DNA from: Hanstruepera neustonica
GTDB lineage: Bacteria > Bacteroidota > Bacteroidia > Flavobacteriales > Flavobacteriaceae
Length of the DNA stretch: 64,000 nt
Assembly (NCBI RefSeq): GCF_002895005.1
Contig: NZ_POWF01000001.1
Span: 186,001 to 250,000, forward strand
Direction: 5' to 3'
The position numbers and the translations under genes were made by a program. Under the pieces are notes generated by a model. That model was not told where the DNA came from. It ran no database searches and saw only the letters and a program-made list of their open reading frames with translations. Positions 788 to 20,765 of this stretch are shown one piece after another (position 1 is the stretch's first letter; each line of letters begins with the position of its first letter).

Positions 788-3700
788 TTATTGTTTTATG
801 AATTTTTTAATTGATAAATATTTTCCATTATTCAATTCAATAAAATATAATCCAGAACTCAATAATGATACATCAATACTACCTGTTGAATTTCCTGAAA
901 TCAGAACCTCCCCAGAAATATTTCTAATATGATAATTGAAAGCATCTACTTCTCCTATTTTCACTGTCAATATATTTGCAGTAACTGGATTTGGATATAG
1001 CTTCACATTTTCAAAATGGCTTGTATCTGTTCCTCTTGATTGTTGCACTTTTAAACTAGACTCATTCCTTCCTGTAATAGTAATTTGATCAACATAAATC
1101 TGTTCATTTTTTTTGGATGCCGCAGATTGGAATCTAAATCCAGCATTAGAAGCAAAATTGTATTGAGTTGATGAAATAACAACTGTCGCATTATTAAATG
1201 AATTGTTATTGTATCCAGAACCTACTATAAAATTAGCAGCTACTACCCAAGTGGATCCATCAAAATAGCTAAAAATTAAACTTTCGCCGTTATTAAGACC
1301 GTTGACATAAAAATAAAGATCTATCTCTATCTCCGAAAAAGGTGAGGTATCAATATTTGACAGCGTCATTGCCGAAGAAATCCCAGAATTATCTCGCAAT
1401 CTCATGGAGTAACTGCCTTCGTAAGAATAGCTCGAAGATACCCTAGAACAATCATTTCCGCCTTCAACCCAACCGTCAAGGCCTGTTTCAAAATAACCTT
1501 GATTTAATATAACGTCACTTGGAGGACATATTGGGCAATAAGAACCTCCACAATCAACTCCTGTTTCATCACCGTTTTGAATACCGTCATTACATGTTGG
1601 CGCCGCTAATGTTGTTTCATTAACTGAATTACTAGCAGAGGAAGAATTCCCTGCTGCATCTCTAGCTACAACATAAAATGAGTAGGTGGTATTTTCACTC
1701 AAACCAGTAGCTAAATAAAAAGTTCCCCAAACGCTATCAATAAAAATTCCATCTTGATAAATATCGTAGCCATCAACTCCAATATTATCTGTGGATGCAT
1801 TCCAAGATAAATCAGTAGTCGTTTCTGTAGTATTAGAAGCCGAAAGTCCAGTCGGTGTACTTGGTGCTACAGTATCTACAAATGCTTCTGTAGTTACATT
1901 CACTGTATTGCTAGCATTAGAAGCGTTCCCTGCTGCATCTCTGGCAATAACATAAAATGTGTAAGCAGTACTTGGACTTAATCCTGCAACCTGATATGTA
2001 GTACCACTTACATTTGCAATAAAACTTCCATCTTGATAAATATCGTAACCTGAAACTCCAACATTATCGGTGGCAACATCCCAACTCAAATCTGTTGTAA
2101 AGGAAGTAGTATTATTTGCTGTTAAATTTGTTGGTGCTGAAGGTGCTTGCGTATCTGGCGGGTCCAAGGTTGTGATATTCTCTGAATTACTTGCAGAGGA
2201 AGCGTTACCTGCTGTATCTCTAGCAATGACATAAAATGAATAACCCGTGCTTGGTGTTAACCCAGTAACCTGATACGACGTCCCTGATACGTTAGTGACA
2301 AAACCTCCATTTTGATACACATCATATCCAGTAACCCCAATATTATCGGTGGAAGCATTCCAAGTTAAATCGGTGCTCGTTTGAGTGGTGTTTGAAGCCG
2401 TTAAATTAGATGGCACACTAGGTGGTGTCACATCGGGTCCTGACAACATTCCCAAGATAATAACTTGGTCTATGTAAACCTGATCATTCTTTCTTTGAGC
2501 ATCACACTGAATTCTAAATTGTGCGTTAGCCGGTAAATTGTATTGTGATGCATCCAATGTAAATGACGCCGAATAGAATGAGTTATTACTAAAATCAACT
2601 CCAGAAGTATATGTCGCCAATGTTGACCATGATGACCCATTATAGTATCGTAACCAAAAATCTTTGCCATTCTCCATACCGCTGGCATAATAATAGAAAC
2701 TAATAGTCACCTCATCATAGGAACTTAAGTCAAAAGTTTGTGAAGTCATTGCTGAAGAAACTCCAGAACCATCTCTTAATCTAACCGAATAACTGCCTTC
2801 ATAAGAATAAGACGTGGCTGTTCTCGAGCAATCATTTCCACCTTCTACCCAATCATCCATTCCCGTTTCAAAATAGCTAGCGCTAACTGTAACATCATTT
2901 GTTGTGGTGAAATAAATGGAATTGCTATAAGGTGACGAGCTAGAATTACAATTACTTCTTACCTGAACTTCATATTCGGTAGCTGTCACTAATCCTGATA
3001 GATTTACGGAATTAGTATTGGTGTTGATTGTATTCCAATTTGAAGATCCAACTGTTCGGTATCGGCAATCATAATTTGAGCTACTTGGGCTATCCCAACT
3101 TACGGTGGCTGAATCAGATTGGACATTGGATGCATTTAATCCTGATGGGGCTGTTGAAGCTAACGGATTCAACAATATATCACTAATAGTAACTGTTTGA
3201 TAATTTGAAATACTTTGATTTGCTAACGTAAAGGATTGATAACAATCAGCTTCAAATAAGATATCATATGTTCCTGCAATGGTTGGTCTATAAAAATCCC
3301 CATAAGGTAATTCTGTTATTGTATGTGAATTGACTGCATCATGCCCTACCAGCGTAATTTTAGCCTCAATGGGATTATTGGTTGCGGCATCTCTCACAAC
3401 ACCTCGAAAACCATAAGTGCCTTGTTCTAAATAATCCAATAAAGCTTCACGGTTATAATTCCAATGATCATTTAATTGAGATGCTGGAATTGTTTTTGTA
3501 TTGGATAATTCAATGGTTGTCTCTTTACATTGTTGATAGTAATTCATATAATCTTGTCTTCCCCCTTCAACGCGATACCAATCCGCACCGTTGGTTACGC
3601 CTGGAAAAACATAGTTGGTATACATGGCATCCATATAGCCATTAGGGCTGTTATTTTGACAATTTTCAGCATATTCTTGACTTATCAAAAAGAACCAGGC

Positions 3701-4678
3701 GTCATCTGGATGTCGTGTATATGTATTATCCCATGGATAATTGACAACTTCTGTACCACCGTGAAAATTGGCGGACAACACAAAATGATAATTATCTGCC
3801 AAAGCCATAAAATGTTGCGTCTCTAGTTCATAATTTGAATTTCCATCAGGATGCGCACCGCCAATATTATCTGGATAATTTCGGTTTAGATCCCATCCAT
3901 TGTCATTAGCGCGTCTCGCATTAGCAACCGATGTGTTTGTAGGATCTCCATAATAAGTACCATCGGGATTGGCGCTTGGATTAATCCAAATTTCTGTAGT
4001 ATCCAATAAATTCTTTACTCTTAAATGGTCAGGATGTCCGGTATCATTATAAACTGTCAATAAATAATTGATTAGCTCTAACATCATTGGGTATCCTGCA
4101 ATTTCATCACCATGCATAGATGAGGTGTACATCATCCTAGGCTCTTGTTCATTCGTAGAAACATTGGCAGAAATCTTGGCAAATAACAATCTTTTGTTTC
4201 CACCTCCAACACCTTCTGTTGTTCCACCAATATCAACTATCTGACATAAACTTGGGTAAGTCGTTTCAAAATCCTGCATTTGTTGTGCATAATCTGAATA
4301 GGTGGGGTAAGCAGTTAATGGAAATACCAGGGTGGATACCAATCTTTGATTGGGAGGTACTACAACTTGATTAGACATGAGTTGTGGGCCAATGATGTTA
4401 TCAGCATCTTCTACAAAATATTCAATACCACTTTCTTGAAAACGTCTAAACTGCTGGGTATTTGCCCAAGCATAAACTGTTTTAGATCTGGGATCATAAT
4501 TCAAAATTGACAATTGGTTCGTCCAATTCTCAATTTCAGAGACATCATTAATTTTAAAACTAAAGTTAACTTCGCCTTTTTGACTTAAAAATTCTTCGGC
4601 TTTTGCTCTGGAGTTATTTTGTGAGAACACAAAAGACATACTAAACAAAAGAACAATAAGGGTAATTTTTGCTTTCAT
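788..4678 (-). CDS. Secreted M14 zinc carboxypeptidase with FN3 repeats and T9SS sorting domain
   Basis: A 1296-residue multidomain protease. I start it at the ATG at 4678 because a signal peptide (MKAKITLIVLLFSMSFVFSQ) follows; a longer frame to 4720 lacks one. The M14 domain is at about 100-420: HGDE (H189, E192) and NFHGG (H306) supply the zinc ligands and TTIELS (E390) the catalytic Glu. Next come a carboxypeptidase-regulatory-like domain (about 420-500), one FN3 domain, a jelly-roll-like module with the motif EGGNDCSR, three near-identical FN3 repeats, a Cys-rich NGDETGVDCGG stretch, and a second EGGNDCSR module. The C-terminus (YPNPV, then ISGEVL, ending IKKFIKQ) is a typical type-A T9SS sorting domain, so the protein is probably exported by T9SS and surface-bound or released. 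The exact peptidase specificity is not readable from sequence. Confidence 0.9.
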   Translation of the reverse strand: MKAKITLIVLLFSMSFVFSQNNSRAKAEEFLSQKGEVNFSFKINDVSEIENWTNQLSILNYDPRSKTVYAWANTQQFRRFQESGIEYFVEDADNIIGPQLMSNQVVVPPNQRLVSTLVFPLTAYPTYSDYAQQMQDFETTYPSLCQIVDIGGTTEGVGGGNKRLLFAKISANVSTNEQEPRMMYTSSMHGDEIAGYPMMLELINYLLTVYNDTGHPDHLRVKNLLDTTEIWINPSANPDGTYYGDPTNTSVANARRANDNGWDLNRNYPDNIGGAHPDGNSNYELETQHFMALADNYHFVLSANFHGGTEVVNYPWDNTYTRHPDDAWFFLISQEYAENCQNNSPNGYMDAMYTNYVFPGVTNGADWYRVEGGRQDYMNYYQQCKETTIELSNTKTIPASQLNDHWNYNREALLDYLEQGTYGFRGVVRDAATNNPIEAKITLVGHDAVNSHTITELPYGDFYRPTIAGTYDILFEADCYQSFTLANQSISNYQTVTISDILLNPLASTAPSGLNASNVQSDSATVSWDSPSSSNYDCRYRTVGSSNWNTINTNTNSVNLSGLVTATEYEVQVRSNCNSSSSPYSNSIYFTTTNDVTVSASYFETGMDDWVEGGNDCSRTATSYSYEGSYSVRLRDGSGVSSAMTSQTFDLSSYDEVTISFYYYASGMENGKDFWLRYYNGSSWSTLATYTSGVDFSNNSFYSASFTLDASQYNLPANAQFRIQCDAQRKNDQVYIDQVIILGMLSGPDVTPPSVPSNLTASNTTQTSTDLTWNASTDNIGVTGYDVYQNGGFVTNVSGTSYQVTGLTPSTGYSFYVIARDTAGNASSASNSENITTLDPPDTQAPSAPTNLTANNTTSFTTDLSWDVATDNVGVSGYDIYQDGSFIANVSGTTYQVAGLSPSTAYTFYVIARDAAGNASNASNTVNVTTEAFVDTVAPSTPTGLSASNTTETTTDLSWNASTDNIGVDGYDIYQDGIFIDSVWGTFYLATGLSENTTYSFYVVARDAAGNSSSASNSVNETTLAAPTCNDGIQNGDETGVDCGGSYCPICPPSDVILNQGYFETGLDGWVEGGNDCSRVSSSYSYEGSYSMRLRDNSGISSAMTLSNIDTSPFSEIEIDLYFYVNGLNNGESLIFSYFDGSTWVVAANFIVGSGYNNNSFNNATVVISSTQYNFASNAGFRFQSAASKKNEQIYVDQITITGRNESSLKVQQSRGTDTSHFENVKLYPNPVTANILTVKIGEVDAFNYHIRNISGEVLISGNSTGSIDVSLLSSGLYFIELNNGKYLSIKKFIKQ

Positions 4679-11197: not shown

Positions 11198-12359
11198 TAT
11201 TTTTTTTGCTTTGAGGTTTGCGTCTTCTTTTGTTGCTTCTTTTATTTTTACGTTTATTTTTGTGTTTTGGACTATCAAAACGTGTTAAACTATCTTGACC
11301 AACAACGTTTTCAAATTCTGTTTTAGTATTTTCTATTAAGTCTGAAGCATATTCCTCGAGGCTAGTTACTTTCTTTTTTTGCTTGTTAAGGGCTATTATT
11401 TCATTGGCTTGATCGGTTGTGATTTTATGCCAATTCATCCACTCGCCCTCATAAGCATACCACATATGTCCTTTGAAAATATCTGTTTTTTGACAAACAG
11501 CAACTCCTTTTTCAGTTTGAAGTTTAATTTCTGTTTTAGGAAAATCTTTAAGCGCATCTAAATAGGTGTCCAACTCGTAGTTTAAACAACATTTTAGTTT
11601 GCCACATTGGCCAGCCAATTTTAATGGATTTAATGACAGCTGCTGGTATCTTGCGGCCGAAGTGCTAACCGAACGAAAATCAGTTAGCCAAGTTGAACAA
11701 CATAATTCACGTCCACAGGAACCAATACCTCCCAGCCTGGATGCCTCCTGACGAAAACCAACCTGACGCATTTCAATTCTGGTCTTAAACTCTTTCGCAA
11801 AAAGTTTGATTAGTTCTCTGAAATCCACACGATCTTCAGCCGTATAATAGAATGTAGCCTTGCTGGCATCACCTTGAAATTCAATGTCCGATATCTTCAT
11901 TTGAAGTTTTAGGTCAATAGCAAATTGTCTGGCTTTGACTTTCATAGGCTCCTCTCTATCCCTTGCATCGGACCAAATATTAATGTCCTTTTGCGAGGCC
12001 TTACGATAAATTTTAAATGCTTCAGGGTCATCTTCAGACAATTTTTTACGCTTCATTTGAACACGTACCAATTCACCCGTAAGTGTTACCATGCCAACGT
12101 CATGTCCATATTCGGCTTGCGTTGCTACGACATCGCCAATGCTTAATGTGAGGTTCTCGGTATTTTTATAGTATTGTTTTCTACCATTCTTAAAACGAAC
12201 CTCCACCCAATTGAAAGGTTCAATTCCATCTGGTAGCGACATATTAGCCAACCAATCAAAAACCGTTAGTTTATTACAACTGTCCGTTCCGCATGTTCCA
12301 TTGTTCTTACATCCTTTGGGTTGACCATCTTTCCCCGTTGCACACGTTCCACAAGCCAT
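11187..12359 (-). CDS. PSP1/RicT-like regulatory iron-sulfur family protein
   Basis: 390 residues from the ATG at 12359, chosen because flavobacterial homologues begin MACGTC; a frame extending ten residues further lacks support. The PSP1 domain includes the conserved Cys set in IGSCGRELCCSTWL and GQCGKLKCCLNYE. In Bacillus RicT (YaaT) the corresponding cysteines help bind Fe-S clusters in the Ric complex that affects RNA maturation and development. The extra N-terminal Cys-rich patch (MACGTC, GCKNNGTCGTDSC) is a feature of this branch. The tail (about 365-390) is strongly basic (KHKNKRKNKRSNKRRRK), which suggests nucleic-acid or ribosome contact; that is inference. First gene of the operon with gldH and the PBP. 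Confidence 0.85.
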   Translation of the reverse strand: MACGTCATGKDGQPKGCKNNGTCGTDSCNKLTVFDWLANMSLPDGIEPFNWVEVRFKNGRKQYYKNTENLTLSIGDVVATQAEYGHDVGMVTLTGELVRVQMKRKKLSEDDPEAFKIYRKASQKDINIWSDARDREEPMKVKARQFAIDLKLQMKISDIEFQGDASKATFYYTAEDRVDFRELIKLFAKEFKTRIEMRQVGFRQEASRLGGIGSCGRELCCSTWLTDFRSVSTSAARYQQLSLNPLKLAGQCGKLKCCLNYELDTYLDALKDFPKTEIKLQTEKGVAVCQKTDIFKGHMWYAYEGEWMNWHKITTDQANEIIALNKQKKKVTSLEEYASDLIENTKTEFENVVGQDSLTRFDSPKHKNKRKNKRSNKRRRKPQSKKNNAK

Positions 12360-12380
12360 ACATTTTTGGTATATATAGAT

Positions 12381-12400
12381 TCTGAACACTAAAGTTCAGA
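12381..12400. promoter_or_regulatory. Short inverted repeat in the ricT-like leader
   Basis: Perfect 7-bp inverted repeat TCTGAAC / GTTCAGA around a 6-nt loop, 22 nt upstream of the ATG at 12359. It could be a leader hairpin or an operator. There is no T-tract, so it is not a terminator. Confidence 0.35.
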
Positions 12401-12467
12401 AGATAATTAATATTGAAATTTAAAACGTAAAGATAAGATTATTCTAAAGACTTTAAAACGCAAAAGT

Positions 12468-13472
12468 TTAATTGAATTCTATTTCATAATTCAGTCTATT
12501 GGACAAGGTCTTTAGGGTGTCTTTTGATTTAAAAATATTTGAAAAAAGTGTGTTGCTCCAACCTATTTTCTTTGAAAAATCATTGAAAGTTTCCTGTTTC
12601 CAATTAAATCCTTCTTTCCAAAATTTTTGAGGAGAAACGTAACAAAAGGTATAGTCAAATATTAAGCTAGAATCGTTTAGGGCTTTTTTATCAGGAATAT
12701 GATCTGGTGCCAAAAGCGTGATATTATTCTTTTTGCAGTTTTCTCTAATACAATTGATTAAGTCAGGATAGTCTTCTCGAAGGGAATCTAGGTCAAAATC
12801 ATTGTACTCTGTATTTCCAATTTTTTGAATGGGCCTTATCTGAAGAATGTCAAAGCTTTCACCATTAAAATGCTTAAAGAAATCCTTCAGCTCATAGAAA
12901 TTGTCCTTATTAAACGTATAATTGATACGAACCCTAAAGTTGTATTGAGCTTTTAGCTTTTGAAACGCCTTGAATGCGTTGTGGAACTTTTCATAACTCG
13001 CCTTTTTCATGAAGCTTTCATAGCTTTCTTTTGTCACACCATGAAGGGAAATAGTGAACTCATTTAAACCTGCTTTTAGCAAGCTTTCTATTTTTTCTTC
13101 ATCCAACAAATTGGCATTAGTGGTCAATGATATGTAAGGAACTTTAAACGTCTTACCCAAAGTAACAATGTGTTCCAAGTTTTTGTATAACGTAGGCTCT
13201 GTACCACAACCTATTTGAAGTTTTAATGCTCTCTTAAAAATGGCATTGGCCACTTGATCAAGCTCTTCTTCTTTAAATTGACCTTTTAAAGTTTTAACAT
13301 AATCTGCATCCGTAAAGTAACACATTTTGCAACGTAAGTTACAGGCCATAACGGGGTCAAGGTTTACAGCTAAATATCGCCTATTAAATTTATGTAACAG
13401 AAAAAGCCCCAGAAACTTAATTCTGTGGCTTTTTATTTTTCTATTTAACTGTAGCAGCTTGTAAATATCCAT
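12468..13472 (-). CDS. Radical SAM protein of unknown substrate
   Basis: 334 residues. The radical-SAM cluster motif C44-NLR-C48-KM-C51 is intact, preceded by LAVNLDPVMA; GCGTEPTLY occupies the place of the usual GGEP SAM-binding motif and is altered. Further barrel features (SLTTNANLL, FTISLHG) are readable. There is no clear C-terminal SPASM cysteine cluster: the distal half has only isolated Cys residues. The ATG follows the trhO stop codon with no intervening base (TAG then ATG on the minus strand), so the two are surely co-transcribed and probably translationally coupled. That suggests, without proving, a link to tRNA modification. The 3' gap before the RicT-like gene is about 108 nt. 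Confidence 0.85.
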   Translation of the reverse strand: MDIYKLLQLNRKIKSHRIKFLGLFLLHKFNRRYLAVNLDPVMACNLRCKMCYFTDADYVKTLKGQFKEEELDQVANAIFKRALKLQIGCGTEPTLYKNLEHIVTLGKTFKVPYISLTTNANLLDEEKIESLLKAGLNEFTISLHGVTKESYESFMKKASYEKFHNAFKAFQKLKAQYNFRVRINYTFNKDNFYELKDFFKHFNGESFDILQIRPIQKIGNTEYNDFDLDSLREDYPDLINCIRENCKKNNITLLAPDHIPDKKALNDSSLIFDYTFCYVSPQKFWKEGFNWKQETFNDFSKKIGWSNTLFSNIFKSKDTLKTLSNRLNYEIEFN

Positions 13473-14543
13473 CTAGCTCTTTTTGTCCAATACCTCAAAG
13501 ATGTTTCGTAAATCTTTTTTAAAAGGTAAATGATCTGCACGACCTTTTTTGAAAATATCATTGCTATTCCCTTGGCCTTTGCGTAAAGCTTTTTGCTCTT
13601 CATAAGGCAATCTGTTTATTTCCATACAGTTGGTTGAGCAACAATTCTCCATTTTTTCTTTACAACTATCACATTGAATGAATAACAAATGGCAGGCCTC
13701 ATTGGCGCAATTGGTATGTAAATCCGCTGGCTCGCCACATTGATGGCACTGGGCAATGATATCATCAGAAATGCGTTCTGAACGCCTTTGATCAAAAACA
13801 AAATTTTTCCCAATGAATTTGTTCTCCAGTCCTTGTTCCTCAACTTGACGAGCATAATTGATGATGCCTCCTTCCAATTGAAAAACATTTTTAAAACCTT
13901 TATGCTTGTAATAGGCACTTGCTTTTTCACAACGGATGCCTCCTGTACAATACATAACCAACTTTTTATCCTCTTTGTGTTCTCGTAAATCTTCTTCAAT
14001 AATATCCAATGATTCTCTAAAAGTATCCACATCAGGTGTAACCGCATTCTTAAAGTGTCCTATTTCACTTTCGTAGTGGTTTCGCATATCAACCAACACA
14101 ACATCAGGATCTTCAATGAGCTCATTAAATTGTTCTGCTCCAACATGTATCCCTTTGTTGGTCACATCAAATGTTTCGTCATTCAATCCATCAGCGACAA
14201 TCTTGTCGCGAACCTTTACTTTCAGTTTTAAAAAGGCAAAATTATCATGCTCAATAGCGACATTCAATCTCACATTTTCTAGAAATGAAATGGTGTCTAA
14301 ATGTTCTTTGAAATCATTGAAGTTTTCTGCCGGAACTGATAATTGTGCATTGATACCTTCGGTAGCGATGTAAATTCTACCGAGCACATCCATTTTGTCC
14401 CAAGCAAGGAACATGTGATTTCTAAAAAGTTCAGGGTTTTTAATTTTGGCGTATTTATAGAAAGAGATCGTCAAGCGGTCTTTTCCCGCTTGCTCAATTA
14501 AGGCTGCTCTTTCTTTAGCGCTTAAGTTATTGTACAGTTGCAT
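13473..14543 (-). CDS. trhO: tRNA uridine(34) 5-hydroxylase TrhO, rhodanese family
   Basis: 356 residues, the usual size of the long TrhO (YceA) form. It has an N-terminal ferredoxin-like domain (about 20-120), then a rhodanese domain with VLVDMRNHYESEIGHFKNA and the active-site loop YCTGGIRCEKA (catalytic C199). A C-terminal Cys-rich segment (CHQCGEP, then CANEACHLLFIQCDSC) may bind zinc. TrhO uses oxygen to make 5-hydroxyuridine at wobble position 34 of certain tRNAs. A perfect -7 box (TACTTTTG, minus strand 14588-14581) is 38 nt upstream of the ATG, though no good -33 box is seen. First gene of a two-gene unit with the radical-SAM gene. Confidence 0.93.
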   Translation of the reverse strand: MQLYNNLSAKERAALIEQAGKDRLTISFYKYAKIKNPELFRNHMFLAWDKMDVLGRIYIATEGINAQLSVPAENFNDFKEHLDTISFLENVRLNVAIEHDNFAFLKLKVKVRDKIVADGLNDETFDVTNKGIHVGAEQFNELIEDPDVVLVDMRNHYESEIGHFKNAVTPDVDTFRESLDIIEEDLREHKEDKKLVMYCTGGIRCEKASAYYKHKGFKNVFQLEGGIINYARQVEEQGLENKFIGKNFVFDQRRSERISDDIIAQCHQCGEPADLHTNCANEACHLLFIQCDSCKEKMENCCSTNCMEINRLPYEEQKALRKGQGNSNDIFKKGRADHLPFKKDLRNIFEVLDKKS

Positions 14544-14626
14544 GCTATACGAATTTTTAAGGTTAAAGATTTATTTGCTGCAAAAGTACATATTTAATAT
14601 GAATTCTGATTTTAATGACAGTCCAT

Positions 14627-14657
14627 AAAAAAAGCGCTCTGATTTCAGAACGCTTTT
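14627..14657 (-). terminator. Rho-independent terminator of the 30-residue peptide gene
   Basis: A 13-bp stem with one mismatch (arms 14630-14642 and 14645-14657, GC-containing core AGCG / CGCT) runs into seven T on the minus strand. It lies 60 nt past the stop of the small gene at 14718-14810 and before the trhO promoter region. Its presence independently supports a short transcription unit there. Confidence 0.75.
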
Positions 14658-14717
14658 AGTAGACTAACTCGTTATTAATATTTTTTCATTCTTCTAAATC
14701 AAAAAACATAATAAGAG

Positions 14718-14810
14718 CTAACCTCCATCGGCTTTACAGCTACTGTTTATAAATACAACAACTGAAACGCCTAATGCCTTGTTAATTAAAGTTTTCTTAA
14801 TAAATTTCAT
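14718..14810 (-). CDS. Small lipoprotein-like peptide (30 residues), candidate ECF-regulon member
   Basis: Thirty codons from ATG at 14810 to TAG at 14718. The product has a basic start (MKFIKKTLINK), a short hydrophobic run (ALGVSVVVFI) and ends NSSCKADGG, i.e. a signal-peptide-like segment followed by a possible lipidated Cys nine residues... from the hydrophobic core, with a loose lipobox (INSSC). It is too small for most gene finders. Support for it being real: a terminator on the same strand 60 nt downstream, and about 93 nt upstream a 29-bp element identical to the one preceding the ECF sigma cassette at 16043-16071, in the matching orientation. A second possible -7 box (TAATTTTG, minus strand 14851-14844) lies 34 nt upstream. 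Function is unknown. It superficially recalls the tiny 'smalltalk' peptides of Bacteroides, but no homology can be claimed. Confidence 0.55.
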   Translation of the reverse strand: MKFIKKTLINKALGVSVVVFINSSCKADGG

Positions 14811-14902
14811 CTGTACAATTTTTTAAATGTTAAAAAGAGCAGACAAAATTAATCGCACAAAATACGATTGATTTCATAGCAAAAGTTCCCCACTTTATAT
14901 AG

Positions 14903-14931
14903 TAGATGCAAAAAGTGCAAAAAGGTTGCGT
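14903..14931 (-). promoter_or_regulatory. ECF-type promoter, copy 1 (toward the 30-residue peptide)
   Basis: 29 nt identical to 16043-16071 but on the opposite strand. Reading on the minus strand, a GCAACC -35-like box, a 15-nt spacer and a CATCTA -10-like box give the spacing typical of ECF sigma promoters. Transcription would start near 14896 and enter the small gene whose ATG is at 14810. Sequence identity with copy 2 is seen directly; recognition by the local ECF sigma is inference. Confidence 0.6.
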
Positions 14932-14938
14932 AAGATTA

Positions 14939-14968
14939 TTGAAAAAATTAAAACTTATCGTAATTTAG
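14939..14968 (+). promoter_or_regulatory. Probable recA promoter (Bacteroidota type)
   Basis: TTG at 14939-14941, a 19-nt spacer and TAATTTAG at 14961-14968, close to the consensus TTG-N19-TAnnTTTG. The ATG of recA is 31 nt downstream of the -7 box. It lies back-to-back with the ECF-type element at 14903-14931. Confidence 0.45.
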
Positions 14969-14999
14969 CTGACCTATCTAATTAAAAATACAACAACAA

Positions 15000-16001
15000 A
15001 TGAGCAGTGAAAAAGATGCAAAACTAAAAGCGTTAAAGCTAACTTTAGACAAGCTAGATAAGGCCTATGGCAAAGGAACAGTAATGAAAATGAGTGATCA
15101 GGCGGTGGTTGATGTTGATGCCATACCTTCTGGTTCTTTAGGTTTAGATATTGCACTGGGTGTAGGCGGTTATCCAAGGGGACGCGTTATAGAAATTTAT
15201 GGTCCGGAATCTTCTGGTAAAACCACATTAACACTTCATGCCATTGCTGAAGCTCAAAAAGGCGGTGGTATTGCAGCTTTTATTGATGCCGAACACGCAT
15301 TCGATAGGTTTTATGCTGAAAAATTAGGTGTTGATATAGACAACCTAATTATTTCGCAACCTGATAACGGTGAACAAGCATTGGAAATTGCTGATAATTT
15401 AATTCGCTCGGGAGCAATTGACATTGTCGTCATTGATTCTGTGGCAGCCCTAACCCCTAAAAGCGAAATTGAAGGTGAAATGGGTGATTCCAAAATGGGA
15501 TTACATGCCAGATTAATGTCACAAGCCTTAAGAAAGTTAACTGCCTCCATTAGTAAAACAAATTGTACGGTTATTTTTATAAACCAATTGCGAGAAAAAA
15601 TTGGGGTCATGTTTGGCAATCCTGAAACAACAACTGGTGGGAACGCCCTTAAATTTTATGCCTCTGTTAGAATAGACATTAGACGTTCTACCCAAATAAA
15701 AGAAACTGATGGGAATGTAACTGGTAATAAAACTCGTGTAAAAATTGTAAAAAACAAAGTAGCTCCACCATTCAAGACTGCGGAATTTGATATTATGTAC
15801 GGCGAAGGTGTTTCCAAAGTTGGAGAAATATTGGATATTGCTGTTGATCTTGAAATTGTTAAAAAGAGTGGTTCTTGGTTTAGTTATGACGAAACAAAGT
15901 TGGGTCAAGGGCGAGATGCCGTAAAAGCCCTCATAAAAGACAATCCGGAGCTTATGGATGAGCTTGAAAGCAAAATTAGGGAGGCGCTAAAGTCCTCATA
16001 A
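15000..16001 (+). CDS. recA: Recombinase RecA
   Basis: 333 residues, full length. RecA forms the ATP-dependent filament on single-stranded DNA that drives strand exchange and triggers SOS-type responses. Walker [10 protein letters not shown], Walker B region [21 protein letters not shown], loop L2 region [23 protein letters not shown] and the C-terminal domain are all present. It is a single-gene unit with its own promoter and a strong terminator at 16004-16034. No LexA-like box was recognised upstream. What is unusual is the setting: the gene sits between two outward-facing copies of an ECF-type promoter (14903-14931 and 16043-16071). Confidence 0.98.
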
Positions 16002-16003
16002 TC

Positions 16004-16034
16004 AAAAAAATCCCAAAAATTTGGGATTTTTTTT
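16004..16034 (+). terminator. recA terminator
   Basis: Stem TCCCAAA / TTTGGGA (16011-16026), preceded by an A-run and followed by eight T, starting 3 nt past the recA stop. It insulates recA from the ECF cassette promoter that begins 9 nt later. Confidence 0.85.
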
Positions 16035-16042
16035 ATTTTTTG

Positions 16043-16071
16043 ACGCAACCTTTTTGCACTTTTTGCATCTA
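16043..16071 (+). promoter_or_regulatory. ECF-type promoter, copy 2 (sigma cassette autopromoter)
   Basis: GCAACC (16045-16050), a 15-nt spacer and CATCTA (16066-16071), a layout typical of ECF sigma promoters. Start of transcription is predicted near 16078, giving a leader of about 30 nt before the ATG at 16108. All 29 nt are repeated on the other strand at 14903-14931. ECF sigma genes are often autoregulated, so recognition by the sigma encoded at 16545 is the simplest reading, but it is inferred. Confidence 0.6.
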
Positions 16072-16107
16072 TAGAGTGAACATGTGATTTAAACATTTAA
16101 TAATACC

Positions 16108-16515
16108 ATGAAAAAAATAGTTGTTTGTTTGTTGTTTTTATTGGCACTATCCTGTAGTATTGACGATGGAATGCAGGAAGTTTCATTTGTGATTTTGCCT
16201 GTTGAAAATGCCATTCTTCCAACAGAGTTTGAGCGTAATGAAACTTATGATATTTATCTTGAGTATTTACGACCCACATCATGCCACGGATTCAATGATA
16301 TTTACTATATGAGTGAATCCAATGAAAGAACAGTTGCTATTGTGGCAAATTATTTTCAGGGGAATTATACTTGTACAGATATCGATGCCCTAACAGAAGC
16401 CTCATTTAGATTTAAGGCCACAACCGAAGATTCCTATGTCTTTAAATTTTGGCAAGGTGAAGATGAAAACGGAGAAGATCAATATTTGATTGTTGAGGTT
16501 CCTGTTATAGATTAA
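16108..16515 (+). CDS. Small lipoprotein, first gene of the ECF sigma cassette
   Basis: 135 residues. The start MKKIVVCLLFLLALSCSIDDG is a lipoprotein signal with lipobox LALSC, so the mature protein is probably anchored in the periplasm or outer membrane. The remainder is about 118 residues, rich in beta-forming and acidic segments (FVILPVENAILPTEF, YDIYLEYLRPTSCHGF, YFQGNYTCTD) with two further Cys residues that could form a disulphide. I recognise no named domain. It lies directly behind the ECF-type promoter and 29 nt before the sigma gene, so a role in sensing or signalling for the sigma/anti-sigma pair is plausible. A simple target-gene role is the alternative. Confidence 0.85.
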   Translation: MKKIVVCLLFLLALSCSIDDGMQEVSFVILPVENAILPTEFERNETYDIYLEYLRPTSCHGFNDIYYMSESNERTVAIVANYFQGNYTCTDIDALTEASFRFKATTEDSYVFKFWQGEDENGEDQYLIVEVPVID

Positions 16516-16544
16516 AGTTAGTGTTTAATTAATATTCATGTCAT

Positions 16545-17087
16545 GTGAGTTTAAAACAACTCATAATTAATTGTAGTAAAAATGATACTAAAGCGCAAAG
16601 TGAACTATATCAACTCTTTTCGAGTAAATTGTTTTCGATATGCTTAAAGTACTCAAAAAACTATGCGGAGGCAGAGGACAATCTGCAAGATGCTTTTTTG
16701 ACTATTTTCAATAAAATAAGTCAATATGATAACAAAGGTTCTTTTGAAGGTTGGTTAAAACGGATTACTATAAACACTGCTCTGCAGCGTTATAGAAATC
16801 AAGGTGTTTTTGAAATAATTAATGAAGAGTTAATTGAAGATGTTGAATTGGACATTGAAGATGATGATTTGACTATAGACTTTTTGTTAAACATTATTCA
16901 AGAGTTACCAGACCGTTATAGATTGGTGTTCAATTTATATGCACTTGATGGTTATTCACATAGTGAAATAGCCGAAATGTTGAATATTTCGTTGGGAACA
17001 TCAAAATCAAATTTAGCAAGAGCTAGAAAGTTGTTAATAGAAAAAATTGAAATTTTTAAAGCGAGTTTAAATTCGCAATCATTGTAA
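16545..17087 (+). CDS. ECF-family RNA polymerase sigma factor
   Basis: 180 residues, start GTG (no in-frame ATG gives the family-typical beginning MSLKQLI). Region 2 (about 25-90) reads LYQLFSSKLFSICLKYSKN, then EAEDNLQDAFLTIF and GSFEGWLKRI. Region 4 (about 120-170) reads LPDRYRLVFNLYALDGYSHSEIAEML with the helix-turn-helix. Regions 1.2 and 3 are absent, as in ECF sigmas. It should direct RNA polymerase to a small envelope-related regulon and be held by the product of the next gene. The stop codon shares its last base with the ATG of that gene (TAATG), so the two proteins are made in a coupled fashion. Confidence 0.95.
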   Translation: MSLKQLIINCSKNDTKAQSELYQLFSSKLFSICLKYSKNYAEAEDNLQDAFLTIFNKISQYDNKGSFEGWLKRITINTALQRYRNQGVFEIINEELIEDVELDIEDDDLTIDFLLNIIQELPDRYRLVFNLYALDGYSHSEIAEMLNISLGTSKSNLARARKLLIEKIEIFKASLNSQSL

Positions 17088-18865
17088 TGAGTGATAAAAA
17101 ACATATCGATAGGATTTTTCAAGAAAAATTGAAAGATTTTGAAGTGTCTCCTAAACCAGAACTTTGGGATAACATTCAAAGCAAGTTAAATTTAGAGAAA
17201 GACGAGCCTAAAAAAATTATTCCAATATGGATGCGTATTGTTGGAATTGCTGCGCTATTGGCATTATTGTTTACTATAGGTTCATTTGTGTTCAACAGTG
17301 CTGATCTTATTTCAAGTGAGCCCAATCAAAATACTGTTGATACCAATTCACAAGAGCCCTTTAATGAGAATTCTCAAAACAGTCAAACTGATAAAGACAA
17401 TCAATCAACAAAAAGTGGCAACGAAAACGACCATTCAGTTGAAGATAATTTAGATTCTCAATTAGCGCCTTCATTTTCTACAGACAAGGAATCTATTGCT
17501 AATTCTTCAAAAGAGTCTGTAGCTTCTGATATGGTTGATTATGAGGATGAGATAACAAATGATAGCCCAAGCACCAATTCAAACCAAAATGGTTCTAGTT
17601 TGAATTCGTTTTCTAAATCTGATGTTGCTGTTTCAAAATCTGAAGCGGGTAAAAACAATATTGAAAACTCATCAAATTCAACAGTCAATAATCATTCTGT
17701 GGAAATATCTCAATTAGAAAAATCATCCAAAAATGCTGTTGTTTCTAATTCAACCAACGCTACTGATAATTATCTTGACAAAGGAACTCAAGAAGCAACA
17801 GACAATAACCAGAAAAACAAAACCACATCTAATAATCTTGAAATATTAAATTCTAAAAATAACCCCCAAGTTTCTTCTAGTGTTAATAAAGCCAATTCGG
17901 CTGTAGCTCAATCTAATTCAAACCCTGAATTGGATAAAAATGCTGTTGAAAATGCTTTAGAATTGGAAAAAACTCAAGAAGCTGTCGTTTTTAACGCTAT
18001 GGAAAATGACACACCTCATAATGAAAAAGAAAAAGAGGACAATCAAAAAGTTGGTGATTCGCTTGCAGCAAGCGAATTGCCATCTATTGAGGAAGAAATT
18101 GCTCAACTAGACAACATTAGTGAAAAAGAAGAAGAAAAAGAAGAATTGGTAAACAGGTGGCAAGTTGCTGCTAATATTGCTCCTGTTTACTATAATTCTC
18201 TAGGTAAAGGATCGCACATTGATGAGCAATTTGTATCAAATTCTAAAAGCGGTGAAGTAAATACTAGTTATGGCGTAAATGTCAGTTATGCCTTAAGTAA
18301 GAAACTGTCTGTAAGATCTGGCGTTAATTCACTTAATTTAAGTTATGATACTGACAATGTTATTTTATATGAAACTCCAAATAGCAACACCAATAATCCT
18401 AATACTAATCCATTAAGAAATATCAATTTAGCGCCTCAAAGTCAGTCTTTAAATGCCTTTAGTGCCGACAATTTAGGCGTTCAACAGGTGTTTGATGAAT
18501 TATACAATGCTGCCATAAGCCAAAGATTGAGTTATTATGAAGTTCCTGTTGAATTGGAATATAAACTAGTCAATAATCGTTTTGGATTTAATATCATTGG
18601 CGGTGTTAGTACGTTCTTTTTAGATGGCAATGAAGTCTATTCAGAATTTGAAGAATACAAGACCTATATTGGTGAAGCCAATAATGTGAACAACGTGAGT
18701 TTTAGTACCAATTTAGGTATTGGTATCAACTATAAATTTTCTGAAACATTTAAATTTAATTTGGAGCCTACCTTCAAATATCAATTGAATGGATTTGAAA
18801 ATACCTCTGGTAATTTTAGACCCTACATAATAGGTGTTTATACTGGATTTAGTTATAAATTTTAG
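17087..18865 (+). CDS. Putative dual-membrane-spanning anti-sigma factor with C-terminal beta-barrel (Dma-like)
   Basis: 592 residues in three parts. Residues 1-45 (IDRIFQEKLKDFEVSP, LWDNIQSKL) look like the short cytoplasmic anti-sigma segment common in Bacteroidota. One hydrophobic helix follows at about 46-68. Residues 70-355 are a low-complexity Ser/Asn/Glu-rich linker, long enough when extended to cross the periplasm. Residues 356-592 start RWQVAANIAPVYYN and alternate beta strands (YGVNVSYALSKKLSVRSGV, YEVPVELEYKL, SFSTNLGIGINYKF), ending in an aromatic (YTGFSYKF), as expected of an outer-membrane barrel. There is no cleavable signal peptide, so one chain would link cytoplasm, inner membrane and outer membrane. 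This is the architecture reported for Dma proteins of Bacteroides. It overlaps the sigma gene by one base. Topology is inferred from sequence only. Confidence 0.8.
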   Translation: MSDKKHIDRIFQEKLKDFEVSPKPELWDNIQSKLNLEKDEPKKIIPIWMRIVGIAALLALLFTIGSFVFNSADLISSEPNQNTVDTNSQEPFNENSQNSQTDKDNQSTKSGNENDHSVEDNLDSQLAPSFSTDKESIANSSKESVASDMVDYEDEITNDSPSTNSNQNGSSLNSFSKSDVAVSKSEAGKNNIENSSNSTVNNHSVEISQLEKSSKNAVVSNSTNATDNYLDKGTQEATDNNQKNKTTSNNLEILNSKNNPQVSSSVNKANSAVAQSNSNPELDKNAVENALELEKTQEAVVFNAMENDTPHNEKEKEDNQKVGDSLAASELPSIEEEIAQLDNISEKEEEKEELVNRWQVAANIAPVYYNSLGKGSHIDEQFVSNSKSGEVNTSYGVNVSYALSKKLSVRSGVNSLNLSYDTDNVILYETPNSNTNNPNTNPLRNINLAPQSQSLNAFSADNLGVQQVFDELYNAAISQRLSYYEVPVELEYKLVNNRFGFNIIGGVSTFFLDGNEVYSEFEEYKTYIGEANNVNNVSFSTNLGIGINYKFSETFKFNLEPTFKYQLNGFENTSGNFRPYIIGVYTGFSYKF

Positions 18866-18924
18866 TTTTTTAGTTGGTTAGATTGGTTGTTTTTTCAACG
18901 CTCTTTGAAAAAGCAATGATGAAC

Positions 18925-18956
18925 AAAAAACCGCTCTGTGCCAAGAGCGGTTTTTT
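18925..18956. terminator. Bidirectional terminator between the sigma cassette and the acyltransferase gene
   Basis: 7-bp stem CCGCTCT / AGAGCGG, 6-nt loop, A6 on the left and T6 on the right, so it can act for both converging units. Its right edge overlaps the stop codon of the acyltransferase gene. Confidence 0.88.
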
Positions 18957-19692
18957 ATTTTTGGCCATTTTGCAATGTGTTAAGTATAATCGTTCGCACT
19001 TGAGAATTCAACTTTTTGGTGTCTTCAATTTTAAAGCCTTTAGTTTCAATGAACTCTTTCCCAATAACGCGCATTTTACCGGGTCCTCCGCTAAAGAAAG
19101 TATAAGAAAAGCGTTGTTTGTTATCCAAAAAAATAAAAGGTGCTATAGGAATTTGATGATTAATGGCTAACCTAAAAGCACCATCTTTAAAATCATCTAA
19201 AATAATGGATTCATCTGGCACACCACCTTCTGGAAAAATACAGATACTTAAACCTTGTTTTAAACGTCTTTGAGCTCTCAAAAAAACGGCTTTTCTGCTT
19301 TTTTCTGAACTTCTATCAACTAAAATACAAGTGCGTTTGTAAAAAAACCCAAATAGTGGAATCTTGGCCAATTCTTTTTTACCAACAAAAACAAAAGGGT
19401 TTTTGGTAACCACAAGCATCAACATGATATCGGCCATAGAAGTATGATTGGCAACAAACATATAACTTGCATTCTTTTGTGTTTTTTGCTCTTGCTTGAT
19501 ACTGATTTTGAATCCCATTCCTATTAAAATAAAATAAGCCCAAAATCGCGCAAGTTTGAAGAAGAATGGATACCATGACTCTTTAAGTATCGAAATGAAC
19601 AATAAAGGAAACAAAATAATTATGGGTAACGCCACCAAAATATAGAACCAAATACGATATAAAATCCAGAATAGATACTTGAATACAATCAT
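18955..19692 (-). CDS. 1-acyl-sn-glycerol-3-phosphate acyltransferase (PlsC family)
   Basis: 245 residues from the ATG at 19692; a TTG three codons earlier is possible but unnecessary. An N-terminal hydrophobic region (about 8-35) anchors it to the inner membrane. The acyltransferase motifs are NHTSMAD (NHx4D, catalytic His), FVGKKELAKIPLFG, and FPEGG (phosphate binding). It would add the second acyl chain to lysophosphatidic acid in phospholipid synthesis, but relatives also acylate other lipids, including ornithine lipids, so the exact acceptor is uncertain. Single-gene unit, divergent from trpS. Confidence 0.88.
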   Translation of the reverse strand: MIVFKYLFWILYRIWFYILVALPIIILFPLLFISILKESWYPFFFKLARFWAYFILIGMGFKISIKQEQKTQKNASYMFVANHTSMADIMLMLVVTKNPFVFVGKKELAKIPLFGFFYKRTCILVDRSSEKSRKAVFLRAQRRLKQGLSICIFPEGGVPDESIILDDFKDGAFRLAINHQIPIAPFIFLDNKQRFSYTFFSGGPGKMRVIGKEFIETKGFKIEDTKKLNSQVRTIILNTLQNGQK

Positions 19693-19716
19693 AAGGTTCA
19701 AAACTACTTAAATAAA

Positions 19717-19747
19717 TTGAGCTATTATACTAAAAAAATTACCTTTG
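19717..19747 (+). promoter_or_regulatory. trpS promoter (Bacteroidota type)
   Basis: TTG at 19717-19719, a 20-nt spacer and a perfect -7 box TACCTTTG at 19740-19747, 49 nt before the trpS ATG. Confidence 0.55.
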
Positions 19748-19796
19748 CTTTAGGTTTAATCAATAACAAGACATGCTGCTGTGGCATTAAATATCT

Positions 19797-20765
19797 ATGG
19801 CTAGAATTTTAACAGGAATACAAAGTACAGGCACTCCACATTTAGGTAATATTTTAGGGGCTATTATGCCCGCAATTGAAATGGCGAATAATCCTGAAAA
19901 TGATTCGTTTTTGTTTATTGCTAATTTGCACACACTCACGCAAATTAAAAATGCCGAAGAATTACGACACAATACCTATTCGGTTGCCGCTACCTGGTTA
20001 GCTTTTGGTTTAGACATTGATAAAACCGTGTTTTACAGACAAAGTGATATACCTCAAGTTACTGAATTGGCCTGGTATTTAAGTTGTTTTTTTCCATATC
20101 AACGGTTAACACTGGCACATAGTTTTAAGGATAAAGCGGATAGATTGGAAGATGTAAATTCGGGTTTATTTAATTACCCGATGTTAATGGCCGCAGATAT
20201 TTTATTGTACGATGCCAATATTATTCCGGTAGGTAAAGACCAATTACAGCATATTGAAATGACTCGTGATGTTGCATCCCGTTTTCATGCCAAAATGGGT
20301 GAAACTTTCGTATTGCCTGAAGGCAAAATACAGGAAAACACCATGCTTATTCCAGGTACCGATGGTGAAAAGATGAGTAAAAGTCGTGGAAACATCATCA
20401 ATATCTTTTTAGACGACAAGAAACTGCGCAAGCAAATCATGTCTATAATGACAGATAGTACCCCTTTAGAAGATCCTAAAGATTGGAAAACCTGTAATTG
20501 TTTTGCTTTATACAGCATTCTAGCTTCTGTTGAAGATGTTGCAAAAATGAAAGCCAATTACGAAGCTGGTGGTTATGGTTACGGTCATGCTAAACAGGCG
20601 CTTTTTGAATTAATTGTTGAAAAATTTGCTGAACCTCGCGAACGCTATAATCATTATATGGCAAACCTAAACGAAATAGATAAGGCCTTACATGTTGGGG
20701 CTCAAAAAGCAAAGCTTGTGGCTGATGATGTTCTAAACCGTGTTCGTGAAAAAGTTGGGTATTAA
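19797..20765 (+). CDS. trpS: Tryptophanyl-tRNA synthetase
   Basis: 322 residues, the standard class Ic enzyme that charges tRNA-Trp. The ATP-binding HIGH-type motif appears as TPHLGNILGA near the N-terminus (residues 12-21), and the KMSKS motif is intact in EKMSKSRGN. The substrate-binding LTLAHSFKDK and the PVGKDQLQHIEMTRDVA segment match the family. Own promoter at 19717-19747. It is followed by a short gap with no clear terminator and a converging membrane-protein gene. Confidence 0.97.
   Translation: MARILTGIQSTGTPHLGNILGAIMPAIEMANNPENDSFLFIANLHTLTQIKNAEELRHNTYSVAATWLAFGLDIDKTVFYRQSDIPQVTELAWYLSCFFPYQRLTLAHSFKDKADRLEDVNSGLFNYPMLMAADILLYDANIIPVGKDQLQHIEMTRDVASRFHAKMGETFVLPEGKIQENTMLIPGTDGEKMSKSRGNIINIFLDDKKLRKQIMSIMTDSTPLEDPKDWKTCNCFALYSILASVEDVAKMKANYEAGGYGYGHAKQALFELIVEKFAEPRERYNHYMANLNEIDKALHVGAQKAKLVADDVLNRVREKVGY

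Follow-up and report, generated by a model that had tools for sequence, protein, structure and literature searches.

What does an operon do in which genes for a lipoprotein, an extracytoplasmic function (ECF) sigma factor and a 592-residue membrane protein follow one another? The question is raised by positions 16043–18865 of a 64,000-nucleotide stretch of the genome of Hanstruepera neustonica (Flavobacteriaceae; NCBI RefSeq GCF_002895005.1, contig NZ_POWF01000001.1, positions 186,001–250,000 of the forward strand); this whole stretch is referred to as the window. A reading of the DNA made without database searches (the sequence-only reading) had likened the 592-residue protein to the dual membrane-spanning anti-sigma (Dma) proteins of Bacteroides thetaiotaomicron. 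Comparative genomics and structure prediction now make it probable that the locus encodes an autoregulated outer-membrane stress switch of the Dma/Reo type, in which a sigma factor and its anti-sigma factor are accompanied by a conserved third gene for a lipoprotein and a regulon of lipoprotein genes is driven by a common promoter-like site.

Predicted architecture of the 592-residue protein

The cassette was found as the sequence-only reading had described it, with three open reading frames (ORFs) on the plus strand: a 135-residue lipoprotein (16108–16515), a 180-residue ECF sigma factor with a GTG start codon (16545–17087) and the 592-residue protein (17087–18865). The stop codon of the sigma gene and the start codon of its partner share a base, the A of TAATG at 17085–17089. 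The sigma factor matches the Pfam families Sigma70_r2 (E 4e-15) and Sigma70_r4_2 (E 1e-17); against NCBIfam, only TIGR02937 (sigma-70 superfamily) exceeded its cut-off among the 25 of 115 families listed.

An AlphaFold2 model of the 592-residue protein was built on 80 sequences. Helices are predicted at residues 6–19 and 24–34, within an anti-sigma-like cytoplasmic segment (residues 1–46; 17087–17224), and at residues 47–72 (17225–17302), which would form the inner-membrane helix. The protein has a single strongly hydrophobic segment, with its best 19-residue stretch at 51–69, close to the helix at about 46–68 proposed earlier, and contains no cysteine. The long linker that follows (residues 73–357; 17303–18157) is rich in Ser and Asn and mostly disordered, with model confidence (predicted local distance difference test, pLDDT) below 50 at residues 74–282 and 295–330; two predicted helices inside it (284–299 and 334–355) refine the earlier description. 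Residues 358–592, encoded with the stop codon at 18158–18865, are modelled as an eight-stranded outer-membrane beta-barrel. When the chain from residue 361 onward is divided into 24 blocks of ten residues, 20 of them have a mean pLDDT of at least 90; the whole-chain mean is only 63 because the linker is of low confidence. Structural matches to the barrel were OmpA, NspA, OprF and OmpW at Z 16–18, including OprF (4rlc; Z 17.7, root-mean-square deviation (rmsd) 2.0 over 130 residues) and NspA (1p4t; Z 18.1, rmsd 3.3 over 153 residues). The last residue is Phe, as it is in 57 of 60 relatives.

Conservation follows the same divisions. Mean column identity across the 80 sequences was 0.70 for the N-terminal segment, where invariant residues include D8, P22 and W27, and 0.64 for the barrel, against 0.21 for linker residues 73–333; the span 73–356 varies in length from 189 to 349 residues. 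A linker that drifts in both sequence and length fits the expectation for a tether. In the mechanism that we favour, the N-terminal helices would bind the sigma factor through residues 1–46 and hold it in the cytoplasm, while the chain would cross the inner membrane once, pass through the periplasm as a flexible linker and end in the small barrel. Sensing of an outer-membrane disturbance by the barrel would then release the sigma factor.

Release may instead work by regulated cutting of the linker and not through an intact chain: damage to the outer membrane would expose the linker to a periplasmic protease, the inner-membrane part would then be processed and the sigma factor freed. Membrane anti-sigma factors are usually inactivated by proteolysis, and the length, disorder and poor conservation of the linker suit such a route. 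On the other hand, none of the ORFs of the operon is a protease gene, and linker identity is low at the level of the alignment, no search having been aimed at a short cleavage motif. We give linker cutting a chance just short of even.

The pair in other genomes

Among 149 genomes of the same family (one per genus, own genome included; match threshold E ≤ 0.001), the 592-residue protein was matched in 125, a degree of conservation that excludes a chance origin. Eighteen of the 24 genomes without a match are of 2.3 Mb or less, and a profile search recovered weaker matches in five of the 24. A phylum-wide draw of 296 genomes (30 from the same family, six from another family of the order and 260 others) gave matches to the Dma profile in 86; among the matches listed, those from outside the family mostly span the N-terminal part. 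The best named relatives came from a Bacteroidia metagenome-assembled genome, Hanstruepera, Bizionia and similar Flavobacteriaceae.

Sixty loci were fetched and classed as 52 orthologs and eight second-copy pairs; a further set of 80 named loci consists of best matches and is biased towards near relatives. A sigma gene adjoins the 592-residue homologue in all 60 fetched loci, a sigma match is present in all 80 named loci, and the gene order around the trio is conserved. These counts bear on another alternative, that the 592-residue protein is simply a small porin, extended at its N-terminus and functionally unconnected to the sigma factor. The likeness of its barrel to OmpA and OmpW would suit a porin, yet the constant sigma neighbour, the cytoplasmic N-terminus as the most conserved segment and the existence of published relatives make this highly improbable.

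The sigma start codon, taken as the start nearest the aligned position, is TTG or GTG in 52 of the 60 loci. Such a start is possibly a means to hold the sigma level under that of its anti-sigma factor.

A promoter-like site ahead of the operon

Position 16043 is the exact first base of a near-invariant site, ACGCAACC followed by a 15-base spacer and CATCT (16043–16070, plus strand), which precedes the operon and predicts autoregulation. ACGCAACC was found within 400 nucleotides upstream of the operon in 49 of the 52 ortholog loci and in one of the eight second-copy loci; of the three remaining orthologs, L053 and L078 have GCGCAACC and L066 has AAGCAACC. With a slightly loosened pattern the site was found in 50 of the 52. 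The spacer is 15 bases in 47 and 14 bases in four of the 51 loci that match the looser full pattern, one of these being a second-copy locus. Among named loci the site was present in 76 of 78, and the other two have GCGCAACC. An Rfam scan of window positions 12000–20000 gave no match.

The strict pattern occurred 410 times in 148 same-family genomes, compared with 10 times in a reversed control. It was present in 113 of 124 Dma-positive genomes and in one of 24 Dma-negative genomes (Fisher p 1e-17). This lone exception, G127, was among the genomes with weaker profile matches; it has a divergent 641-residue Dma-like partner, a sigma factor and a lipoprotein preceded by the site. In the phylum-wide draw the site was found in 28 of the 30 same-family genomes and in none of the six from another family of the order, while the other 260 genomes gave 62 matches against 46 in the reversed control, that is, near control level. 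The genome of H. neustonica itself holds six exact sites and none in the reversed control. Allowing one mismatch added nine sites, which are unusable because the control then gave eight.

Comparative genomics supports recognition of ACGCAACC-N15-CATCT by this sigma factor. Once freed, the sigma factor would act at the site ahead of its own operon, giving positive feedback together with more anti-sigma factor. An alternative is that the site belongs to another regulator, for which a Das/Dma-type pair is merely one target. Sigma factors can cross-regulate one another, a transcription start site study of Flavobacterium psychrophilum discusses overlapping ECF regulons (PMC9723704), and it is by inference that we assign the site to this sigma factor. 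Against another regulator stand the co-occurrence of site and pair across the 148 genomes, with G127 resolved, and the occurrence of the site ahead of the pair itself in almost every ortholog locus, as opposed to one of eight second-copy pairs. We consider it quite unlikely. A single ECF-like motif is described in the available text of the F. psychrophilum promoter study (PMC9723704); its −10 box is CGT, and it differs from the site described here.

The lipoprotein as a third gene

The sequence-only reading had raised the possibility of the lipoprotein as a third component. Conservation of the gene strengthens that suggestion, as do the different lipoproteins found in the same slot of second-copy pairs. 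A homolog was found in 43 of the 52 ortholog loci: in 35 of the 42 whose fetched stretch includes recA, and in eight of the 10 that lack it. In six of these eight it lies upstream of the sigma gene, in one (L070) it is 2 kb away with its own site, and in one (L079) it follows the pair and has a ACGCAACC box to itself. It was present in 79 of the 80 named loci, with their bias towards near relatives. The lipobox cysteine (Cys16), Cys59 and Cys89 are invariant in 78 sequences, and the protein is confidently modelled as a beta-sandwich. Searches of the lipoprotein against Pfam, NCBIfam and PDB sequences gave nothing over cut-off; most of the weak family matches below cut-off that could be placed fall in the signal peptide. 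By gene content across these loci, the lipoprotein gene is a conserved third gene of the unit.

Second-copy pairs have different lipoproteins. A lipoprotein gene unrelated to that of the window occupies the same slot upstream of the sigma gene in seven of the eight loci (L071, L073, L074, L075, L076, L086 and L087), which come from other genera, and the eighth (L077) has pnp there (gene names assigned by eye). In L078, a 72-residue ORF at about 3543–3758 contains a fragment resembling the C-terminus of the lipoprotein (YIFKFWQ-like), which suggests that the gene is decaying there.

The part played by the operon lipoprotein would most likely be that of a delivered output, and it may also feed back on the barrel. 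That it is output only, with no part in sensing, would agree with the predominance of lipoproteins among the other predicted targets, with its positions in L079 and L070, and with the nine ortholog loci in which no lipoprotein was detected. Its presence near the pair in eight of the 10 loci that lack the recA neighbourhood, and the other lipoproteins in the slot of seven second-copy pairs, count against this. We put the chance of an output-only role a little above even.

A predicted regulon of lipoprotein genes

Of the six exact sites in the H. neustonica genome, one precedes the operon, one a 30-residue ORF next to recA, three precede genes for lipoproteins (L111, L112 and L113) and one a gene for a secreted protein with a DUF11 domain (L110). 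The first ATG ORF after each of 115 distinct sites in further genomes of the family was scored for a lipoprotein signal. The first ATG lies no more than 50 nucleotides from CATCT at 91 of the 115 sites, and a lipoprotein signal was found at 71, compared with 15 of 155 other ORFs of at least 60 residues in the same loci (p 4e-20). A second background, ORFs of at least 100 residues in the window and the other own-genome loci, gave 12 of 122, with the window lipoprotein counted twice. Removal of the 20 core-locus sites left a signal at 58 of 95. These comparisons suggest that the site marks a family-wide regulon of mostly lipoprotein genes. At least two acidic residues at +2 to +8 after the cysteine, a signal linked to surface export (PMC9308784), were seen in 56 of the 71 regulon lipoproteins; 11 of the 15 control lipoproteins have such residues too, so that this signal does not distinguish the regulon.

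Recurrent targets include lipoprotein families of nine, eight, six and four members, the largest lipocalin-like by eye. The most frequent predicted target is a family of single-helix peptides of 28–35 residues (MKILLIISILIVINLILLTFSVNKKTEP; MTTFLIVLGALLVTNFLLLQFSCNDATEPETPEEE), which follow 14 of the 95 off-locus sites (L141, L158, L161, L164, L178, L189, L206 and L212; L125, L147, L148, L167, L185 and L190). A different micropeptide is found in the window, where a second site, identical in all 28 bases and divergent from the first (14904–14931, minus strand), adjoins recA and precedes the 30-residue ORF ending in CKADGG (14718–14810, minus strand), a predicted target of the switch. Its consensus, MKFFKKTxLINALGVSVxVxINSxCKADGG, recurs in L031, L123, L131, L135, L156 and others; the site followed by this micropeptide was seen in 61 of 141 loci examined, and the ratio of nonsynonymous to synonymous polymorphism (pN/pS) is 0.52 over 45 unique sequences. 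The lipobox sets a rule for the residues at −1 and −3 to the cysteine, and those of the micropeptide do not fit it; the possibility that it is a mini-lipoprotein was rejected on this ground. It could be a signalling or modified peptide.

Through the same site, the freed sigma factor would act mostly on lipoprotein genes and conserved micropeptides. The likely result would be an altered lipoprotein coat and perhaps shedding of outer membrane.

Several observations weigh against the switch, or against its reach as proposed. The N-terminus of the 592-residue protein has no Pfam anti-sigma match, and the sigma factor has no assignment to ECF21, the Dma-cognate family, no ECF classification model having been used. 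The nine ortholog loci without a detected lipoprotein count on the same side. The strict site is missing from 34 of the 148 genomes, 11 of them with a Dma match, which means that the strict pattern misses variants or that some pairs use another site. Among the same-family genomes of the phylum-wide draw, G297 has one site and no Dma profile match among the five of nine candidates that were scored; in G131 and G203, by contrast, Dma matches of low strength occur but the site does not. The total of occurrences is inflated by G125, in which an identical 28-base match stands at eight places on contig 1, a pattern that suggests a segment of a mobile or repeated element. Thirty-seven of the 95 off-locus sites lack a lipoprotein signal by the pattern used; 14 of them precede the single-helix peptides and a few precede lipoproteins that the pattern missed, and others are probably chance or coding sequence. 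Among the sites are five that lie exactly 66 nucleotides before the start of rmlD-like genes (dTDP-rhamnose synthesis, by eye; L142, L145, L168, L194 and L197), and these are doubtful as promoters and maybe coding, because the spacer is also conserved.

Relation to known sigma/anti-sigma systems

The Dma2 paper describes an N-terminal anti-sigma segment, a transmembrane helix, a disordered tether, a C-terminal barrel and an adjacent ECF sigma factor, and reports that loss of dma2 raises expression of its own operon in B. thetaiotaomicron (PMC13088901). The window protein has the single helix at 47–72, the long disordered tether, the modelled C-terminal barrel and the neighbouring ECF sigma factor, so that the Dma architecture named by the sequence-only reading was found or is predicted in each of these features. 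Its likeness to the Dma1/Das1 and Dma2/Das2 pairs is one of described architecture. In another family of the class, two Dma-like proteins encoded next to nigD were matched by profile comparison over 87 barrel columns, with a probability of 80 and E 1.4e-5. Induction of the cognate regulon and vesiculation upon loss of the protein are further marks of Dma proteins, which the window protein may share. Unlike the operons in the available Dma1/Dma2 text, that of the window starts with a lipoprotein gene; its recA–plsC neighbourhood, family-specific site and lipoprotein regulon were likewise not found in that text.

EcfO-Reo of Bacteroides fragilis and Phocaeicola vulgatus is similar in that the anti-sigma factor reaches from the cytoplasm to an outer-membrane barrel. 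In P. vulgatus the system has been linked to envelope stress, its regulon includes three nigD lipoprotein genes, and a toxin that presumably disturbs the outer membrane induces the system (PMC9308784, PMC13114119). Locus tags (nigD 03762, sigma 03761, anti-sigma 03760) place one nigD gene beside EcfO-Reo, with the orientation not seen in the available text. Unlike EcfO-Reo, the system described here has a site that falls to near control level outside its own family. In Escherichia coli, the ECF sigma factor Sigma-E is held by the membrane anti-sigma factor RseA and tuned to outer-membrane trouble. RseA resembles the window protein, in the role predicted for the latter, in restraining an ECF sigma factor from a membrane and differs from it in having no barrel, sensing being done by separate proteins and proteases.

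We conclude that the switch is a member of the known Dma/Reo kind, whereas its operon lipoprotein, promoter code and family-wide lipoprotein regulon were not found described. No description of the site or the lipoprotein was found in open-licence literature, and overlap with the original Dma1 and EcfO papers, above all on the lipoproteins in those regulons, is possible.

NigD and lipoprotein supply

Because the EcfO and Dma1 regulons include NigD lipoproteins, identity of the operon lipoprotein with NigD was considered. It was rejected: no NigD domain was matched by the window protein in Pfam even with E values of up to 10 allowed, NigD is not among the 25 of 34 Pfam families listed for 78 members of the lipoprotein family, and hhalign comparison with six NigD proteins aligned the signal peptide only. 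Weak matches to NCBIfam NigD1/NigD2 were seen in eight of the 78 members, the best of them at E 0.019. The modelled fold resembles the C-terminal domains of the NigD relatives 3k0y (Z 5.9, rmsd 3.1, 87 residues) and 3k6o (Z 5.1, rmsd 3.7, 95 residues), values in the range of a common arrangement, and we keep the link only as a weak resemblance between predicted and known folds.

PF12667 had no match in 148 genomes; NF051862 was matched five times in 118 genomes, each time weakly and short of the cut-off. Six nigD genes exceeded the PF12667 cut-off, in five of 395 genomes. Two (L363 and L364) are divergent neighbours of a barrel-type pair whose partner protein has 425 and 409 residues, respectively, unlike the window lipoprotein gene, which lies inside the operon. 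Another stands in front of a sigma gene (L361), and within the stretches covered no sigma gene adjoins the remaining three (L357, L360 and L362). L361 had been taken for nigD, sigma and anti-sigma genes in the window order; this was dropped when a longer stretch (L365) showed a 182-residue partner without a barrel. A loose pattern did not find the promoter-like site beside nigD in L357–L365.

A broader interpretation is that the unit is a lipoprotein-homeostasis circuit, in which barrel and operon lipoprotein would together gauge the supply or surface display of outer-membrane lipoproteins, the sigma factor would answer through the family-wide regulon, with the micropeptides as further effectors, and lipoprotein, sigma factor and anti-sigma factor would form a three-part unit that recurs in Bacteroidota, its lipoprotein being exchanged between systems. 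The finding that L361/L365 is not a Dma pair slightly lowered our estimate for this interpretation, which we hold as tentative and rather unlikely.

In Flavobacterium johnsoniae, depletion of TamL raises 31 of 47 outer-membrane lipoproteins, and the authors suggest an unnamed stress response (PMC12045153). The locus, read as the switch that we favour, is a concrete candidate for that response.

For the switch that we favour, the data suggest that lipoprotein control is a task common to Dma/Reo systems. The pair is present in most sampled genera of the family, has a promoter code that can be read and is predicted to govern a regulon of lipoprotein genes; it is a candidate for how these bacteria adjust their lipoprotein-rich outer surface; the conserved third gene and the predicted regulon make its function in Flavobacteriaceae testable.

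The H. neustonica genome holds a second anti-sigma-like ORF (C9:307182–307928, minus strand; a frame of 264 residues), which is probably too short for a linker and barrel, matches the Dma profile weakly (E 1e-6) and adjoins another ECF sigma gene (C9:308230).

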